DNA from: Nitrospira sp.
GTDB lineage: Bacteria; Nitrospirota; Nitrospiria; Nitrospirales; Nitrospiraceae
Direction: 5' to 3'
NCBI GenBank assembly: GCA_024330945.1
Contig: JANDJJ010000005.1
Span: forward strand, 1 to 51,839
Length of the DNA stretch: 51,839 bases
This document shows, in pieces, positions 12,099 to 21,917 of this stretch. The position numbers were made by a program, and so were the translations under genes. Below the pieces are notes generated by a model that saw only the letters and a program-made list of their open reading frames with translations, was not told where the DNA came from and did not search any database. Each line of letters starts with the position of its first letter. Within the stretch, counting starts at the first letter, position 1.

Positions 12099-13541
12099 TC
12101 ACTTAATCGCCTGTCCAGCCGTTCTCGGCATAAACATCTCAAAGATACTAGGTTCGCGCTCGGTATAATCAGGCGGGAAGAAGTTAAACCGCCGCCATAA
12201 TTCATACCACAGCGGAACGCGATTCAAAATCACCCAACCCAAGACCTTTGTCCCTTGCCGGACCCGCGACTGGTCTGGCCATGGCTGACCGTCTTCGGGG
12301 TCCGGCACCACCCAGAATCTAAAGTTGCCTTTCCCATCATCGATCTGATCGACGACCTTGATGATACCGGTCCTGGTGCCTGCCATCAATTCCGGCCATG
12401 CCGGCAATGGAATCGCCGGAACTCCAAAGAAGAGAATTTTCACCTTTCGTCCCGGTACCAAGAGCGGGGCATCCAACCCCTCGGCGACCATTTCGATCGC
12501 GACGTCCCCGGCTTTTGGAGACAGCGTGACGAGCGTTTCTCCCTGTTTGACGGTTTCCATGATCCCGATTCTCGCCTGCCGAACGACCGTTCCATCCATC
12601 GTTGCGTAGATCTTGGCTGCATCGATACGTTGCTGGTTGTTTTGCAAACGAACCGTGACGTCAGCCAGTTCGTCGGCCGCTTTTGAGGCAGCAGCCACTG
12701 CTTGGTCGCGAGCCGCTTCCGCCTCTATCAACCGCTGCCACACCTCAGCGGAGACCTGATCTCGGCCGAATGCCAACGCCGACCTTGCTTGCTCAGCGGC
12801 CTTCAGATTGGCCTGCGCAGCTTGCAAGGCGGCCTGTGCCGTCACCTCAGCTTGAATCGTCAACTCGAGCTCCCGTTGGGAAACCAACCCGTCCTTGACG
12901 AGCTGTCGGTGCCGATCAACGTTGAGCAGTGCGGTGGTCAAATCGATCTTGGCTGCCTCAAGCTTTTGTTGCGCCTCGCGCACCCTATTTTCCGCCTCGA
13001 CCACCCTTGCGTCAGCCGATGGGACCGCCGCCTTTACTAAGTTCCTCATTTCTCCAATCCGCTTATTTAACTGCTCAGCCCTAGCCAAAGCTGCCTGCCG
13101 CTGTTGTTGCAGCGCGAGCTTCCGCTGCTCTAACAGGGAAATAAGTTCCGGTGCCATAAAATTTGGGTCATAGTCTTCAAGCTCAGCGATGAGATCGCCT
13201 TTCTTGACCGGCATACCCTCATAAACATGCCACGCCTTCAATCGACCAGTGATACGAGACTCGATGTTTTGCGGTCGTTCATATGGCGTGTACGCCGAGA
13301 CTTTCCCCGTGGCGCTGATCGTCTGTGTCCACGGGACAAACTCGACGATAATCAGTATGAGAAGCAGAATGGTTAACGTTACCCGCGATGAGCCGAGCAA
13401 GCTTCTAGGCACTTTCACAGCCTGCCATGATGACATGCTGGCCACACTGCCCATCATGTCGATATCAGCAGCCGCAATCCCCGGACCCGGTTGTGATACC
13501 ACGAGCGCTCTTTCTTCCGAATTACCTTGTTGGCGAGCCAT
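12099..13541 (-). CDS. HlyD-family periplasmic adaptor (membrane fusion protein)
   Basis: 480 residues; GGGAGG lies five bases before the ATG. One N-terminal membrane helix (about residues 54-70, LTILLLILIIVEFVPW) follows a cytoplasmic tail. Then come a split lipoyl/barrel-sandwich domain (GKVSAYTPYERPQNIESRITGR region and the later ATMDGTVVRQARIGIMETVKQGE half) and a long alanine- and glutamine-rich coiled-coil hairpin at about 145-310. Such adaptors bridge an inner-membrane exporter to a TolC channel. It is the last gene of the operon tolC-tolC-ABC-hlyD, 39 bases after the ABC gene. An extended C-terminal part (YTEREPSIFEMFMPR) is not typical of HlyD. The export substrate is unknown. Confidence 0.88.
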   Translation of the reverse strand: MARQQGNSEERALVVSQPGPGIAAADIDMMGSVASMSSWQAVKVPRSLLGSSRVTLTILLLILIIVEFVPWTQTISATGKVSAYTPYERPQNIESRITGRLKAWHVYEGMPVKKGDLIAELEDYDPNFMAPELISLLEQRKLALQQQRQAALARAEQLNKRIGEMRNLVKAAVPSADARVVEAENRVREAQQKLEAAKIDLTTALLNVDRHRQLVKDGLVSQRELELTIQAEVTAQAALQAAQANLKAAEQARSALAFGRDQVSAEVWQRLIEAEAARDQAVAAASKAADELADVTVRLQNNQQRIDAAKIYATMDGTVVRQARIGIMETVKQGETLVTLSPKAGDVAIEMVAEGLDAPLLVPGRKVKILFFGVPAIPLPAWPELMAGTRTGIIKVVDQIDDGKGNFRFWVVPDPEDGQPWPDQSRVRQGTKVLGWVILNRVPLWYELWRRFNFFPPDYTEREPSIFEMFMPRTAGQAIK

Positions 13542-13580: not shown

Positions 13581-15257
13581 TTACATATGGGCATGATGCA
13601 GCATCACACGGCGATCAGCATGATCCGTCAAATTGGGATCAGTGGATACAAAAATCACCGACCAAGGCTCTTCTTTCGCACAGAGCCGACGCAAGATTCT
13701 CTCCCGTAGCGACGGTTCGAGACTGTGAATGAGCCCGTCGAAAATCAGGACTTGAGGCCGACCAAGAATAGCCCTGGCAAGAAGGATTTGAACGGCATGA
13801 CTCGGCGAGATGGCTTCACCCAGTTCCGAGATATCCGATTTGATGCCTTGAGGAAGAACATCGATATCTTCTTCGAGTTCCGTGAAACGGAGCGCCCATA
13901 TAATGTCATCGTACGTCACGTAGGATCGTCCGAGCACAATGTTGTCTTCGATCGTCCCCTTCAGCAGAGAAAGCTGAGAATCGATCATGACGCTCCGACA
14001 TTGGCTGAGGACAGTAGGATCGATGTATCGCAAATCAACCCCATTATATTGGATAACGCCGCTGGTCGGCGCTTCCAACCCGCCCAACACCCTGGCCAAC
14101 GCCGTTTTTGCCGTGGTGGTACGAGCATAGATCCCAAGCTTTTCTCCCGGAGCAACGTCCAAATTGAAACTATCGAACACGGGCGCTCCGTCGTGGACCA
14201 GTCCCACGCTTTTACAGGTAACACGAATTCCCTCATTCAGATGCGAGGGCAATGCGACTGTCGAGGCAGTGGGGAGCGGATCCCTCTGAAGCGAGAAGAA
14301 ATCGCTTAGTTCCATGACGGCCGTAAAGAAATAATACACGTGGCCCATATTTTTGATCAGTGAGTCAAAATTCAGCACTAACGCGCCAACCACCACTTCG
14401 GCCGCCACTAACTGACCGAGCGTCATTTGCCCCTGCGCCATCAGCCATCCGGCGAGCGCCAACGCACCGGCCTGCGCGACCGCCTGTCCGGAGACGGAAC
14501 CGATATACTGACGCAACAACACGCGAATTCTGGCCTTTCGAGTCTCGGTGTAGCGGTTAACAAGCTGGTCGGTCTTCTGCATGATCCATGCGGAACTGTC
14601 CGTGGCCTTCAACTGCAAGACATTGCGCGAAATATCTTGCATCCAATCGAAGACTTCGTACTTGGCTTCGGCCATATCCATTGTGGTCCGCAACGCGCCA
14701 CGGGAAAGAACAAAAAAGGTGATGGCAAAGCCGACCATCAGCAGCATGTCGTACACAAGAAAATAGGGGTGATAAATCACCAGCAGGACCATGCCCACCG
14801 TGCCGCCCACGACGACATTCACCAAGTCGATGAGGAGCGTGGACAAGGCACGCTGCATGAACACGATCTCAATAAAGCGATTGGCCGCTTCCGGCCTAAA
14901 ACCTTGGAAGCGATAACGCGGCAGCTGTTGAGCCATGGCAATGGCCACCCGAGCAAAGATCCGCCGCTGCACGATTTCAACCGCATAGAAGTGAAACGTC
15001 TTAAACATGCCGACGAATAGCAAGACCGCCAGCATGATACCGGTCAAGGTCCAGATCATGACGGGCTGAACGGCATAGGAGAAGGTGCTGACGAGTTCTT
15101 GAACCGTTAAGGGGACGATAAGGGAGAACAATCCGATCGCGAGAGCATAGGCCAGGATGACGGTGAGCAATTTTTTCTCGACACGCGACCCTACAGAGAG
15201 CTGTCTCATCAGCGCTTGAAACAAGTTCGGATAGCTTGAACCGTAAGGCTCTTTCAT
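13581..15257 (-). CDS. ABC exporter with degenerate nucleotide-binding domain
   Basis: 558 residues from the ATG at 15257 (AGGGGG five bases upstream; an in-frame GTG at 15263 overlaps that site). Residues 30-320 form a six-helix exporter domain; 335-558 align along their length with an ABC ATPase, but the motifs are lost: Walker A reads ARTTTAKT (378-385; all three glycines replaced, lysine kept), the signature reads ISPSH instead of LSGGQ, Walker B is VLIFDG with glycine in place of the catalytic glutamate, and the switch histidine of the AHR motif is replaced (VSTDPN). Fold-defining stretches such as GTIEDNIVLG, LLARAILGRPQVLIFD and DHADRRVML remain, so this is not a frameshift effect. By family it should power type I secretion with the adjacent HlyD and TolC proteins; by sequence it probably cannot hydrolyse ATP by itself. 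No peptidase C39 domain is present. Confidence 0.85.
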   Translation of the reverse strand: MKEPYGSSYPNLFQALMRQLSVGSRVEKKLLTVILAYALAIGLFSLIVPLTVQELVSTFSYAVQPVMIWTLTGIMLAVLLFVGMFKTFHFYAVEIVQRRIFARVAIAMAQQLPRYRFQGFRPEAANRFIEIVFMQRALSTLLIDLVNVVVGGTVGMVLLVIYHPYFLVYDMLLMVGFAITFFVLSRGALRTTMDMAEAKYEVFDWMQDISRNVLQLKATDSSAWIMQKTDQLVNRYTETRKARIRVLLRQYIGSVSGQAVAQAGALALAGWLMAQGQMTLGQLVAAEVVVGALVLNFDSLIKNMGHVYYFFTAVMELSDFFSLQRDPLPTASTVALPSHLNEGIRVTCKSVGLVHDGAPVFDSFNLDVAPGEKLGIYARTTTAKTALARVLGGLEAPTSGVIQYNGVDLRYIDPTVLSQCRSVMIDSQLSLLKGTIEDNIVLGRSYVTYDDIIWALRFTELEEDIDVLPQGIKSDISELGEAISPSHAVQILLARAILGRPQVLIFDGLIHSLEPSLRERILRRLCAKEEPWSVIFVSTDPNLTDHADRRVMLHHAHM

Positions 15258-15311
15258 GAACACCCCCTGTGATTTAAAAATGAGGGATCGGCCTTTACCC
15301 TCACAAACTCC

Positions 15312-16910
15312 TTAATCACGCCCCTGCAGCTTTCGGCCTGACAAACCGGCCGCGGTGGCAGGATCACCGTACTTTGCCAAAATATTATGGGGCACAGGCT
15401 TCGACAGCGCTCCCTTGGCCCACAAATAGCCGCCCCGTGCCAGGTCATAATCATATTGCGCTTGATACAGCTCGTAGGCAGCCTCGACGGCGTTTCGCTC
15501 CCGTAGATTCACGAACAAGAGACTGGTGATACCCATGTCAAATCGTTTCTGCTCACCAGCCAATAGGGTTTGCGCCAATTGATACGCTTCCTTAGCAGCC
15601 CTCACGCGGTCCCTAGCCCGCACGATGGCGGATACCCAATTATCAACGTCGAGGCTGACTTTTTGCTCGGCATTCCACAGGTCATACGTCAGTCGTTCTT
15701 GCTCGGCCTCTGCATGGGCCACCTTGCCACGGGCTTCTCGGTTGAACAACGGCATGCTGAGTACGGTTCCTACCCGGTAGCCGAATCCTCCAATCCAATA
15801 GATACCGCCGGTCGATCGTCCTCCTTCCAAAGTCAGCTTGGGAAGCAGTTTGTTCTTGGCCAGTTTGAGATCAATGTTATTCATCCTGACATCGATTGCC
15901 AGTTTCCGCACTTCCGGCCGATCTTCCTTGGCGGACACTTTCGCCTCGACGATTTCGTCTTCGGTCGGCAAGGGTGTTTCCCCCCCAAACTCCGGCGCCC
16001 ACTCGGGGAGAGGCGTGATTGGTTCCTCCTTCTCCCAAAGGAATAAAGACAGTTTGTACTGTTCATATTCCAATTTTCGCTGAGCGGCAATGGCGGCCTC
16101 TCGGCGCCGCTGGACCTCTTGACCGGCTTCCACCACATCCAGTGGCGAGACCAATCCCGCCTTGGCTTGTCCTTCAATGAAAACCAGCCGATCCTCTGCG
16201 ACCCGCAACGCCTGTTTTTGAACATCAGCCTGCTTCACCGCAAGCTGCCAGTCCCAGTACTGAACGGCCCCGGCCAAAAAGAGATCCTGCCGCGTTTGAG
16301 CTACTTTCACCTCGGCCAGCGGCCCCGCGAGCTCGGCCTGCTGAAATTCGGCAAACTCGTCATTGATCATAAAGCCGCGCAGGAGATTGAGTTCTCCGCC
16401 AAAGATGGCCATTTGATTTGGATAAAAAAGTTCGAGATCCTCAGGGAACGCCACCGGCCCCCCTAATGGGGAGCGAAGGATCGCTCCTGAGCTCGAGATG
16501 GTCGCACGATCTCCAAAACCGTGACGGATACCGCCGAAAATATTGAACCCATAGGGGTGCCCAATCTTGAGCATAGTATCGCTATAACCAGCCACCAAGG
16601 TATTCGGCACGCCTTGCGCGTTCGTCAGATTCCACGTTTGGTAGCGGTCAACCTCGACCTCGTTCTTTAACTTCGGCTCCCAGGCCCCCAACGCTTTCAG
16701 GACCTTTGCTCGAGCCTGCGCCCGCTCCAATCCAGTTGCGCGGATCAGCGGGTGGGCCAACTCAATTCTGGCCAGCACCTCTTCAATGGTCAGCGGAGCG
16801 GTTCGCATCGAAGCCTGTCCTGATAACCCCATGACCGTTGTGGCCTCAGCCAGGACGGTCACTGGTATCCAGATCAACGAGACTAACAACGCTACCAACA
16901 AAGCGATCAC
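15312..16910 (-). CDS. TolC-family outer-membrane efflux protein (copy 2)
   Basis: 532 residues from a GTG preceded by AAAGGAG at 9 bases. A hydrophobic signal sequence (IALLVALLVSLIWIPVTVLA) is followed by TAPLTIEEVLARIELAHPLI, the usual start of the outer-membrane factor domain, and two long helical repeats (LAGPLAEVKVAQTRQDL, GLVSPLDVVEAGQEVQRRREAA, and in the second half SLDVDNWVSAIVRARDRVRAAKEAYQLAQ). These proteins trimerise into an outer-membrane channel with a periplasmic tunnel. It is a tandem paralogue of the gene just upstream, 25 bases away, with long stretches of nearly identical protein. The ABC gene follows after about 50 bases. Confidence 0.9.
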   Translation of the reverse strand: MIALLVALLVSLIWIPVTVLAEATTVMGLSGQASMRTAPLTIEEVLARIELAHPLIRATGLERAQARAKVLKALGAWEPKLKNEVEVDRYQTWNLTNAQGVPNTLVAGYSDTMLKIGHPYGFNIFGGIRHGFGDRATISSSGAILRSPLGGPVAFPEDLELFYPNQMAIFGGELNLLRGFMINDEFAEFQQAELAGPLAEVKVAQTRQDLFLAGAVQYWDWQLAVKQADVQKQALRVAEDRLVFIEGQAKAGLVSPLDVVEAGQEVQRRREAAIAAQRKLEYEQYKLSLFLWEKEEPITPLPEWAPEFGGETPLPTEDEIVEAKVSAKEDRPEVRKLAIDVRMNNIDLKLAKNKLLPKLTLEGGRSTGGIYWIGGFGYRVGTVLSMPLFNREARGKVAHAEAEQERLTYDLWNAEQKVSLDVDNWVSAIVRARDRVRAAKEAYQLAQTLLAGEQKRFDMGITSLLFVNLRERNAVEAAYELYQAQYDYDLARGGYLWAKGALSKPVPHNILAKYGDPATAAGLSGRKLQGRD

Positions 16911-16935: not shown

Positions 16936-18489
16936 TTAATCGCGTCCAGACTTTTTGGAACCGTTCTTTCCTGCCGCCGTCAGAGGATCTCCATATTTCG
17001 CCAACACCGCATCCCCCACCGGCTTCGACAAGGCCCCTCTCGCCAAAAGAAGGCCGCCCCGTGCCAGATCATAATCGTACTGCGCTTGATAGAGCTCAAA
17101 CGCCGCTTCGACCGCATTTTGCTCACGTAGGTTCACAAACAAAATGCTTGAGATTCCCATCTCAAATCGCTTGCGCTCACCAGCTTCCAGCTCCTTGGCC
17201 AAACGGTACGCTTCCCTCGCTGCTCTGACCCGGTCCCTCGCCCGCACAATCGCCGAAAGCCAATTGTCTACATCAATACTCACTTGCTGCTCTGTATACA
17301 CCTGACTCAGAACCAACCGTTGTTGCTCCGCCTCCGCATACAGAACCTTCCCTCGGCCCTCCCGTTGGAAGAGCGGCATGGCAAACTGTGTCGCATAGCG
17401 ATATCCCACGCCTACGATCCAGTCCGCAGGCGCATCCGTTCGTCCTCCCTCAAAATCGAATTTGGGGAGCAGGTAGTTCTTGGCCAGCTTGAGATCGATG
17501 TTGTTCATCTTGGCTTCAATGTACAGGGCCCGCACTTCCGGCCGATCTTCCTTCGCCTCAACTTTGTAAGCGGCAATCTCGTCCTCGGTCGGCAAGGGGG
17601 TTTCGCCCTGAAACTCCGGCGCCCACTCCGGTCGCGGCGTCACCGGCTCGCCGTTTTCCCAGAGAAACAGCGACAGCTTGTACTGCTCATACTCCACCTT
17701 CCGCTGCGCGGCTATGGCCGCCTCCCGCCGGCGTTGAACTTCCTGGCCGATCTCGACCACATCGAGCGGCGACACCTTGCCCGCCTTGGCCTGCCCCTCA
17801 ATCTGTTGATATCGAGCTTCGGCCACCGCCAGCGCCTGCTTCACGACCTCCGCTTGTTTGACCGCTACCTGCCAATCCCAGTATTGGACGGCCCCCGCCA
17901 GGTAGAGATCCTGCCGTTTCTGGGCCACCTTCACCTCCGCGAGCGGTCCAGCCAGTTCGGCCTGCTGCAACTCGGCGTTCTCTTCGTTGATGATCAAGCC
18001 GCGCAAGAGTTGGAACGATCCGCCGAGGATAAGTTGCTGCTGAGGATAGAACAGTTGGAGATCGGGGATAATTGCAATGAAGTTCTGATTGATTCGGTCA
18101 CCCATGCCGTTTCGAATTCCACCTTGGATTCGGAATCCCCATGGATGTCCCACATCGAGCTTGGTGTCATTAAAGCCGCCGGTCTGAATTTTTGGTAAGA
18201 AGGGAGACGTCGTGAGGTTCCACGTTTCATATCGTTCAACCTCTGTAATATTTTTGAGCGTGGGCTCCCAAGCTCCGAGCGCTTTCAGAACCTTCGCACG
18301 AGCCTTCATGCGCTCGGCTCCGGTCGCCTGAAGCAGGGGATGGGTCAACTCGATTCTGGCAAGAACTTCTTCGATGGTGAGAGGAGCGGTGCGGATCGGC
18401 TGAGCCTGCGGGGTCCTCGAATCGCTTACCGGTTCAGCCAGTGCAATCATCGGCGTCGAGATGAGCACGACCAGCAGCAGGGCGATCAC
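16936..18489 (-). CDS. TolC-family outer-membrane efflux protein (copy 1)
   Basis: 517 residues, first gene of the operon, from a GTG with AAAGGAG seven bases upstream. A signal peptide (ALLLVVLISTPMIALA) precedes the same TAPLTIEEVLARIEL domain start as in the following paralogue. Typical TolC helical-repeat segments occur near residues 175-260 and 370-460. The main differences from copy 2 are in the N-terminal third (the loop after GFNDTKLDVGHPWGF), where copy 2 is longer by about 15 residues. Two channel proteins in one type I secretion-like operon are uncommon; they may form alternative or mixed trimers. A LysR-type regulator is divergently transcribed 150 bases upstream. Confidence 0.9.
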   Translation of the reverse strand: MIALLLVVLISTPMIALAEPVSDSRTPQAQPIRTAPLTIEEVLARIELTHPLLQATGAERMKARAKVLKALGAWEPTLKNITEVERYETWNLTTSPFLPKIQTGGFNDTKLDVGHPWGFRIQGGIRNGMGDRINQNFIAIIPDLQLFYPQQQLILGGSFQLLRGLIINEENAELQQAELAGPLAEVKVAQKRQDLYLAGAVQYWDWQVAVKQAEVVKQALAVAEARYQQIEGQAKAGKVSPLDVVEIGQEVQRRREAAIAAQRKVEYEQYKLSLFLWENGEPVTPRPEWAPEFQGETPLPTEDEIAAYKVEAKEDRPEVRALYIEAKMNNIDLKLAKNYLLPKFDFEGGRTDAPADWIVGVGYRYATQFAMPLFQREGRGKVLYAEAEQQRLVLSQVYTEQQVSIDVDNWLSAIVRARDRVRAAREAYRLAKELEAGERKRFEMGISSILFVNLREQNAVEAAFELYQAQYDYDLARGGLLLARGALSKPVGDAVLAKYGDPLTAAGKNGSKKSGRD

Positions 18490-18582: not shown

Positions 18583-18612
18583 TTGGAATCTTCGTGAAAG
18601 ACGATGTATAGT
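18583..18612 (+). promoter_or_regulatory. Promoter of the NhaR-like regulator
   Basis: TTGGAA at 18583-18588 and TATAGT at 18607-18612 are spaced by 18 bases. A start near 18619 would place the GTG at 18611 outside the transcript, which favours the ATG at 18641 as the translation start. Confidence 0.45.
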
Positions 18613-18640
18613 GAAGGCGCCGCTTTTCGACGCATTCCGT

Positions 18641-19537
18641 ATGGAATGGCTCAATTATCACCATTTGCTGTATTTTTGGTCCGTCGCCAAGCACGGCACG
18701 GTCGCCAAAGCTTGCGAAGAGCTTCGCCTCGCTCAGCCAACCATCAGCGGACAGATCAGGCTCCTGGAACAGTCCTTGGGGGAAAAATTGTTCGTGCGCA
18801 CGGGACGCCGACTCGCGTTGACTGAGATGGGACACGTGGTGTTTGAGTACGCGGAAGCCATCTTCGCCATGGGACAAGAGTTACTGAACACGGTGAAAGG
18901 ACGCGCAGAGGGGCACCAGGCACGCCTGGTCGTCGGCATCGCCGATGTCGTGCCGAAGCCGCTGGCGAACCATCTTCTCCGAGCGGGACTAAACTTGGAT
19001 CAGCCCATGCACTTGGTCTGCCAAGAGGACAAACTTCATCGGCTCCTAGCCGATTTAACAATGCACCGATACGACCTTGTCATCTCCGACATGCCCGCGC
19101 CGCCGAACTTCAAAGCCCACGCCTATAACCATCCGATCGGCGAATCAGGAGTGACGTTCTTCGGTACGTCGAAATTGGCGTCGCTCTATAAACGTGAGTT
19201 TCCTCGTTCGTTGCACGGCGCCCCGATGCTCCTGCCCACCGCGGACGCAGCCCTTCGCCGATCGATCGACCAATGGTTGGTCCACCACCGCCTCCACCCC
19301 AGCATCGTAGGCGAGTTCGACGACAGCGCGACGCTCAAAGCCTTCGGTCAGGAGGGATTCGGCATTTTCCCCGGCGTCACTGCAATGGAAAAGGAAATCT
19401 GTCGTCAATATAGGGTCTCGGCCATCGGCCGCCTGGATTCCGTCAAACAGTACTTTTATGCGATCACTGTCGAGCGCCGCCTCAAACATCCGGCGGTTCT
19501 GGCGATCGTCCAAGCGGCCCGGCGGGAGCTGGACTGA
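18641..19537 (+). CDS. nhaR: LysR-family transcriptional regulator, NhaR type
   Basis: 298 residues from the ATG at 18641, which begins MEWLNYHHLLYFW, matching the NhaR subfamily start; a GTG at 18611 would add ten residues but lies within the inferred promoter. The winged helix-turn-helix covers residues 1-65 (AKACEELRLAQPTISGQIRLLEQSLGEKLF in several pieces), then a LysR substrate-binding domain with VGIADVVPKPLA and a C-terminal FGIFPGV segment. NhaR responds to sodium ions in E. coli; many homologues sit elsewhere with unknown ligands. It is divergent from the secretion-like operon, the usual arrangement for a LysR regulator and its target. No Na+/H+ antiporter gene is in view, so the symbol denotes family, not proven function. 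Confidence 0.82.
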   Translation: MEWLNYHHLLYFWSVAKHGTVAKACEELRLAQPTISGQIRLLEQSLGEKLFVRTGRRLALTEMGHVVFEYAEAIFAMGQELLNTVKGRAEGHQARLVVGIADVVPKPLANHLLRAGLNLDQPMHLVCQEDKLHRLLADLTMHRYDLVISDMPAPPNFKAHAYNHPIGESGVTFFGTSKLASLYKREFPRSLHGAPMLLPTADAALRRSIDQWLVHHRLHPSIVGEFDDSATLKAFGQEGFGIFPGVTAMEKEICRQYRVSAIGRLDSVKQYFYAITVERRLKHPAVLAIVQAARRELD

Positions 19538-21347: not shown

Positions 21348-21917
21348 CTATCGACGATACCGCTTGGCCACGTTCTCGCCCGGAATGAAGACCGCGAGCG
21401 CGATGACCGTCGTCCACTTGCCGGCCTTGCCGATCGCCGACTGAGTGATGTTCGACGTTTTGACGATCTTGCCGCCCATCTTGAACACTTGCTCGCGCTC
21501 CTTCCAAGCGACATTGGGGTCAAATTCCAACCCCAGCGTGGTGGCCAACATCTGAGCCGCAAGATCCTCCGTGTACTCGCCGGTTTCCTCATCCGTCTCG
21601 CCATGGGCATGGTGTTCGGACAAGTAGCCGTAGCTGTTGCGGTCCGTCGGCTTCGCCAGGCCGACCGAGGCTGAAATCAGCCGATTTCGTTCATTGGTTT
21701 CGGACCGGGCCATGACACAAAACGTGATTTCCCCGGGACTCAGCAGTTTTTCGCCCCGCTTCCGCGAGATGATTTTGCAATTGGGCGGCAAAATGGACGA
21801 TACGCTGACGAGATTGCAGTAGGCAACCCCCGCGCTTCGCAGCGCCTCCTCAAAAGAGGCCAGTTTCTCCTTGTGTACGCCCACTCCTCTCGTCAAAAAC
21901 ATGTGCGTCGGTACCAT
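21348..21917 (-). CDS. pdaD: Pyruvoyl-dependent arginine decarboxylase
   Basis: 189 residues; GAGGGAG lies five bases before the ATG. The self-cleavage motif is VSVSSILPP, with cleavage expected between S40 and S41 to create the pyruvoyl cofactor and separate beta and alpha chains. [21 protein letters not shown] at the N-terminus and [24 protein letters not shown] (in pieces) match archaeal and bacterial PdaD. The enzyme decarboxylates arginine to agmatine without pyridoxal phosphate. The C-terminal [19 protein letters not shown] segment is typical. This form is best known from archaea, chlamydiae and a limited set of bacteria. It is cotranscribed with speB. Confidence 0.93.

Follow-up and report, generated by a model that had tools for sequence, protein, structure and literature searches.

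A conserved family of ATPase-dead ABC exporters encoded beside HlyD and TolC genes in the Nitrospirales

The window, which is the whole 51,839-nucleotide stretch of Nitrospira sp. DNA that was analysed (positions 1 to 51,839 of contig JANDJJ010000005.1, assembly GCA_024330945.1), contains a four-gene set on the minus strand, in the order TolC (16936–18489), TolC (15312–16910), ATPase-dead ABC exporter and HlyD. The HlyD gene is followed by genes which we take to be purE and purK. The features of the locus are the following; all motifs of the pseudo-nucleotide-binding domain (pseudo-NBD) were placed by an alignment of 94 homologues.

18611..19537, plus strand: divergent LysR-type regulator (NhaR model 240 bits, cut-off 219)
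16936..18489, minus strand: second TolC-family outer-membrane channel (OEP), by profile
15312..16910, minus strand: TolC-family outer-membrane channel (OEP), by profile
13581..15263, minus strand: ATPase-dead ABC exporter half-transporter (TMD and pseudo-NBD), 560 aa, by profiles, fold match and homologue alignment
14289..15182, minus strand: transmembrane domain (TMD), residues about 28–325
14592..14624, minus strand: second coupling helix region, residues 214–224, by AF2 model and column comparison
14397..14399, minus strand: Glu289 in the last TMD helix (TM6), by alignment
13596..14231, minus strand: pseudo-NBD, residues about 345–556
14094..14129, minus strand: Walker A remnant YARTTTAKTALA, residues 379–390
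13965..13985, minus strand: Q-loop replacement IDSQLSL, residues 427–433
13797..13814, minus strand: signature motif replacement AISPSH, residues 484–489
13716..13748, minus strand: Walker B / D-loop replacement LIFDGLIHSLE, residues 506–516
13635..13646, minus strand: switch-His region replacement STDP, residues 540–543
12099..13541, minus strand: HlyD-family periplasmic adaptor, by profile

The exporter gene starts with a GTG at position 15263, and several stops lie on the plus strand across 13581–15263. The first-pass annotation had placed the gene at 13581–15257; the open reading frame is real, but it runs on the minus strand and extends to 15263, the end at 15257 having been given because of an in-frame ATG there, two codons after the GTG. 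The operon with an HlyD adaptor and two TolC channels, also described in that annotation, is confirmed by the gene order.

The window protein is a real ABC homologue with the TMD-NBD architecture of an exporter half-transporter, as established by Pfam and NCBIfam profiles and by PDB sequence and fold matches. Its match to Pfam ABC_tran scores 35 bits against a cut-off of 25, and the Pfam profile search gave no match to ABC_membrane. The NHLM, LssB, PrtD and HlyB exporter models of NCBIfam are the nearest, with an alignment that spans much of the protein and scores far under the cut-offs. The best Foldseek matches of the AF2 model are PCAT1 and HlyB; this low-confidence model, built from 16 sequences (pLDDT 61), was used only for the exporter fold and the helix breaks. 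A chance origin of the open frame is excluded because it is conserved across about 100 genomes.

The protein does not possess the canonical motif set of an ATP-driven exporter (GxxGxGK[ST], LSGGQ, catalytic Glu, Q-loop Gln and switch His), and the same holds across its relatives, where counts refer to 94 distinct full-length Nitrospirales homologues. The Walker A reads YARTTTAKT (residues 379–387); its first Gly is found in 0/94 homologues and Lys386 in 83/94. The Walker A glycines and the A-loop aromatic residue are lost, Lys386-Thr387 is retained in the window protein, and the Walker A Lys and Thr are lost too in the sister family. The Q-loop Gln is replaced by Ser429, part of a DS pair whose Asp428 and Ser429 are each found in 86/94, and the first Gly of the signature motif occurs in none of the 94. 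Walker B is LIFDG (506–510), with Asp509 retained (an Asp is present here in 88/94), while the catalytic Glu is replaced by Gly510 and followed by His513 (DG..H) in 94/94. The switch region reads VSTDP (539–543), and no homologue has the switch His, all 94 having Asp542.

The earlier claim that every motif was lost at once thus goes slightly too far: Walker A, the signature, the catalytic Glu and the switch His are gone as stated, and the Q-loop Gln as well, but Lys386-Thr387 and Asp509 remain. Judged from its sequence, the pseudo-NBD is without what a normal ATPase needs, a condition that is uniform, long established and maintained by strong purifying selection.

The gene is present in 96/118 genomes of the window's family. 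In a sample of the phylum it was found in this family and in one other, sister family of the same order; the single further match is an intact exporter from a more distantly related family. No ortholog with intact motifs was found, the 94 full-length Nitrospirales members all being dead at the same positions. The dN/dS values are 0.013–0.036 against close relatives and up to 0.09 farther out (overall 0.01–0.09), with many dS values saturated at the larger distances. There is no consistent difference between the two domains, as dN/dS of the NBD is as low as that of the TMD and the mean column entropy is equal (1.33 and 1.31 bits for NBD and TMD). Decay or a frameshift is ruled out by the open frames, these dN/dS values and the same dead state in 94/94, and a relaxed decay of the ATPase in this lineage, which the motif loss and nothing more would favour, can be practically dismissed. 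The selected loss proposed in the first-pass annotation is strongly supported by the search of Nitrospirota for orthologs and the dN/dS comparison it had called for, the degeneracy being conserved with dN/dS below 1.

Dead ABC paralogues also occur in tandem, with both copies equally dead. Among the loci read, such pairs lie at L062, L063, L065, L051 and L054, and after most of them comes a gene for a membrane protein bearing a 4HB_MCP sensory domain; the L051 record is titled 'uncultured Nitrosospira', has typical Nitrospira loci and is probably a misnamed Nitrospira bin. The MAG Bin429 (L038, L045) has two gene copies with 100% and 92% identity to that of the window, perhaps from a strain mixture. 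Lone dead paralogues without HlyD or TolC were seen at L053/L066, L064, L070, L074 and L059; several lone paralogues adjoin a PAS histidine kinase and/or a sigma-54 response regulator, and one adjoins a Na+/H+ exchanger-family gene.

HlyD and TolC genes adjoin the dead ABC gene in 59/70 loci read. The type I secretion gene set of ABC exporter, HlyD adaptor and TolC channel is found together at the window locus, and a non-exhaustive search of the annotated neighbours revealed no gene of the RTX or leader-peptide kind. In the neighbourhoods read, neither a constant other energised pump beside the HlyD/TolC loci nor a recurring intact ABC partner was seen. Three tandem TolC genes, as against two in the window, are found at L040–L042, L044, L046–L050 and L052. 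Genes for a pyruvoyl arginine decarboxylase and an arginase-family protein recur near the operon (window 21348–21917; L040, 334–1314), which hints at a polyamine context or reflects only shared synteny.

The LysR-type regulator starts at 18611, 121 bases from the operon on the opposite strand, and its position makes it likely that it controls the operon. NhaR is a sodium/pH-responsive type of regulator, and the operon-adjacent regulator exceeds the NhaR cut-off in both families, whilst a LysR gene resembling OxyR lies close to several of the sphingomonad cousins; the loci concerned in these two observations are window 18611–19537, L121, L127 and L129–L131.

Relatives outside Nitrospirota were sought by tblastn of plasmid records only, with the full protein and the TMD alone as queries, and cousins located beside HlyD and TolC were found in Bacteroidota and sphingomonads (Persicobacter, Riemerella, Aureibacter and sphingomonads). 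The damage to the NBD differs among these cousins: a Walker A remnant persists in Persicobacter and Riemerella, near-normal in the latter, and the Walker A is entirely lost in the sphingomonads. In a tree of the TMD columns the clan stands apart from the active exporters included, with the Nitrospirota members together, the program cautioning that the base of the tree joins long branches. Cousins are automatically annotated as 'ABC transporter ATP-binding protein', and no paper on the present family was found in the open-access literature. In Sphingopyxis sp. 113P3 (L148, 6896–9631) the cousin gene is truncated beside an IS3 transposase gene.

One genus of the sister family includes three genomes in which the family members consist of the TMD only (337–346 aa). 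Their ORFs stop right after the TMD, inside longer contigs, the gene order is HlyD-TolC-TMD, and the sequence past one of these genes reaches a NuoL-like gene with no NBD ORF between them. A split gene is ruled out, as no separate family NBD was found elsewhere in the three genomes, where the best other matches are exporters of a type also found in a full-length relative. The two distinct TMD-only proteins in the tree nest within the full-length sister-family clade, and the loss of the NBD is counted as one event because the three species belong to one genus. All three members have dN/dS of 0.23–0.29, which indicates purifying selection and is above that of their HlyD and TolC neighbours. The TMD, conserved clan-wide, is the sole part that these members retain, and in this one branch the NBD has been deleted without loss of the rest of the system.

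A gene for DabA, an inorganic carbon transporter (PF10070), lies just past the NBD-less operon (L121, 997–7210, with the NuoL-like gene; L122, 8477–11731; and L123), and a DUF2309/DabA gene adjoins one Sphingobium cousin (L144, 1362–3914). In the window's family DabA occurs in 105/118 genomes but was not observed next to the operon; a functional link is therefore doubtful, and the adjacency may be a coincidence.

Six of the 78 conserved TMD columns are lost in the NBD-less proteins, and coupling helix 2 is enriched among these (3/6 versus 3/72 elsewhere, p=0.005). Its consensus residues His217, Lys219 and Ser223 are lost in all three NBD-less relatives (the window protein has Gln217), while another lost column, Pro115, lies in the first intracellular loop. 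The loss of the coupling-helix residues together with the NBD suggests that they serve the docking of the pseudo-NBD in the full-length members.

Position 289 in TM6 is Glu in 39/45 Nitrospirota representatives and in 13/13 cousins, and Gln in the remaining 6/45, whereas the active exporters included have Val, Tyr, Ile and one Gln. Glu289 is the candidate ion-coupling carboxylate, but the six Gln residues weaken its case: they leave the clan without a single strictly conserved membrane carboxylate that would mark proton coupling.

The closest known systems, by NCBIfam profiles and fold search, are the type I secretion exporters and their peptidase-containing relatives (HlyB, LssB, PrtD, PCAT1 and NHLM ABC). 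The type I secretion exporters have the same operon partners as the dead family, HlyD and TolC. All of these proteins bind and hydrolyse ATP, whereas in the dead family none of the motifs is complete and functional, and the scores fall far short of each family's cut-off.

According to one proposal, SbmA/BacA (SLiPT) proteins arose from ABC transporters by loss of the NBD and the coupling helices (PMC13316013). They share the ABC-exporter TMD fold with the dead family, and SbmA works without ATP. However, SbmA is a peptide importer with a glutamate ladder and an additional TM0, and it lacks HlyD/TolC, while most dead-family members carry a pseudo-NBD; the window protein keeps both its pseudo-NBD and coupling-helix residues, unlike the SLiPT arrangement of a TMD without either. 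With regard to the glutamate ladder, the dead family was compared at the one Glu/Gln position of TM6 (289). The NBD-less LmrA-MD (PMC2704374) and MsbA-MD (PMC4979069) were reported to be ion-driven and, like the NBD-less branch, are exporter TMDs without an NBD, but they are laboratory truncations of active ATPases, whereas the loss described here is natural and conserved.

Natural degeneracy under selection is known from heterodimeric exporters with one degenerate site, such as TmrAB, TM287/288, TAP and MRP1 (PMC7756269). These keep one working site, while in the dead family both composite sites would be broken, whether the dimer is formed by one protein or by tandem paralogues. The known degenerate partners retain the signature motif that completes the site of the other subunit, and it is this motif whose first Gly is found in 0/94 here.

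The window gene probably encodes the inner-membrane part of a tripartite export system resembling type I secretion, in which ATP was abandoned at the exporter's own NBD and drive by an ion gradient is favoured; from the comparisons above we assign this reading a probability of about 0.7. The dead exporter, the HlyD adaptor and the TolC channel would form the three parts, the exporter having descended from an ABC exporter of the type I secretion type. The pseudo-NBD would be docked on the TMD via the coupling helices as a structural or gating element, and, given Lys386 in 83/94, it may have residual ligand binding. The protein would pair with itself or, where two dead paralogues are in tandem, with the other copy, and the TMD dimer would do the work as a gated conduit or transporter feeding HlyD-TolC. 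Weighing against this reading are the Gln at position 289 in six representatives, the dN/dS of the TMD-only members, higher than that of their HlyD and TolC neighbours, the single event behind those members, and the full-length paralogues that lie apart from HlyD or TolC genes. An ion gradient as the source of energy is favoured over a passive scaffold by the precedent of SbmA, LmrA-MD and MsbA-MD. A channel powered otherwise, one of the suggestions of the first-pass annotation, is the sole one to survive (as a channel or a transporter), although the power source itself stays hypothetical.

In its strict form, in which the TMD dimer is a secondary-active transporter coupling proton or sodium flow to HlyD-TolC export, this explanation is quite possible, at somewhat less than even odds. 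It is consistent with the dispensability of the NBD in one branch, the clan-wide Glu/Gln at position 289, mostly absent from active exporters, the NhaR score of the divergent regulator, and the ion-driven NBD-less LmrA and MsbA and natural SbmA; the replacement of Glu289 by Gln in some members speaks against it, and an NhaR-type similarity leaves the signal unfixed. The adjacency of HlyD and TolC, the lack of a constant other energised pump in the loci read and a pseudo-NBD as strongly conserved as the TMD would also agree with a non-transporting scaffold, in which the dead exporter anchors and gates HlyD-TolC and the substrate arrives from the periplasm or from another transporter. Such a scaffold is doubtful, since many TMD residues, some of them charged, are invariant, the TMD is still conserved after NBD loss, and solo paralogues exist without HlyD or TolC.

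Both readings that give the pseudo-NBD a part of its own had been raised before, and neither fares well. A sensor that binds a nucleotide or other small ligand and gates the exporter could make use of Lys386 and of the fixed DS, DG..H and Asp542 that surround the former catalytic pocket, but the Walker A glycines and the A-loop aromatic are lost, the sister family also lacks the Walker A Lys and Thr, and one branch dispenses with the NBD, so that this is unlikely, and a conserved role as nucleotide sensor finds no support. Pairing with an active ABC half-transporter encoded elsewhere is very unlikely because both composite ATP sites would be broken, the Walker set as well as the signature being missing. 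The genome does contain intact exporters (e.g., 318–2048), and heterodimeric exporters often have one degenerate site (PMC7756269), but none of the 94 has the signature needed to complete the site of a partner, both genes are dead where two copies lie in tandem, the neighbourhoods show no recurring intact partner and one branch is entirely NBD-less.

Under the preferred reading of an ATP-independent tripartite exporter, the cousins with a remnant Walker A, the Nitrospirales pseudo-NBDs and the NBD-deleted branch could represent a natural series from primary to secondary transport within one clan, all serving an ion-gradient-driven HlyD-TolC exporter; this is possible, though we would lean against it. 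ABC exporters are defined by their use of ATP, which is also how type I secretion is taught to be powered. The existence of a conserved clan with the exporter, the adaptor and the channel but no ATP use suggests that the TMD is useful without its motor. Annotation of the cousins as 'ABC transporter ATP-binding protein' would mislead transport reconstructions. The conversion of pumps driven by ATP into ion-driven ones has so far been discussed on the basis of SbmA and of engineered LmrA and MsbA, and the members with a pseudo-NBD and with no NBD would provide natural intermediates for this question.
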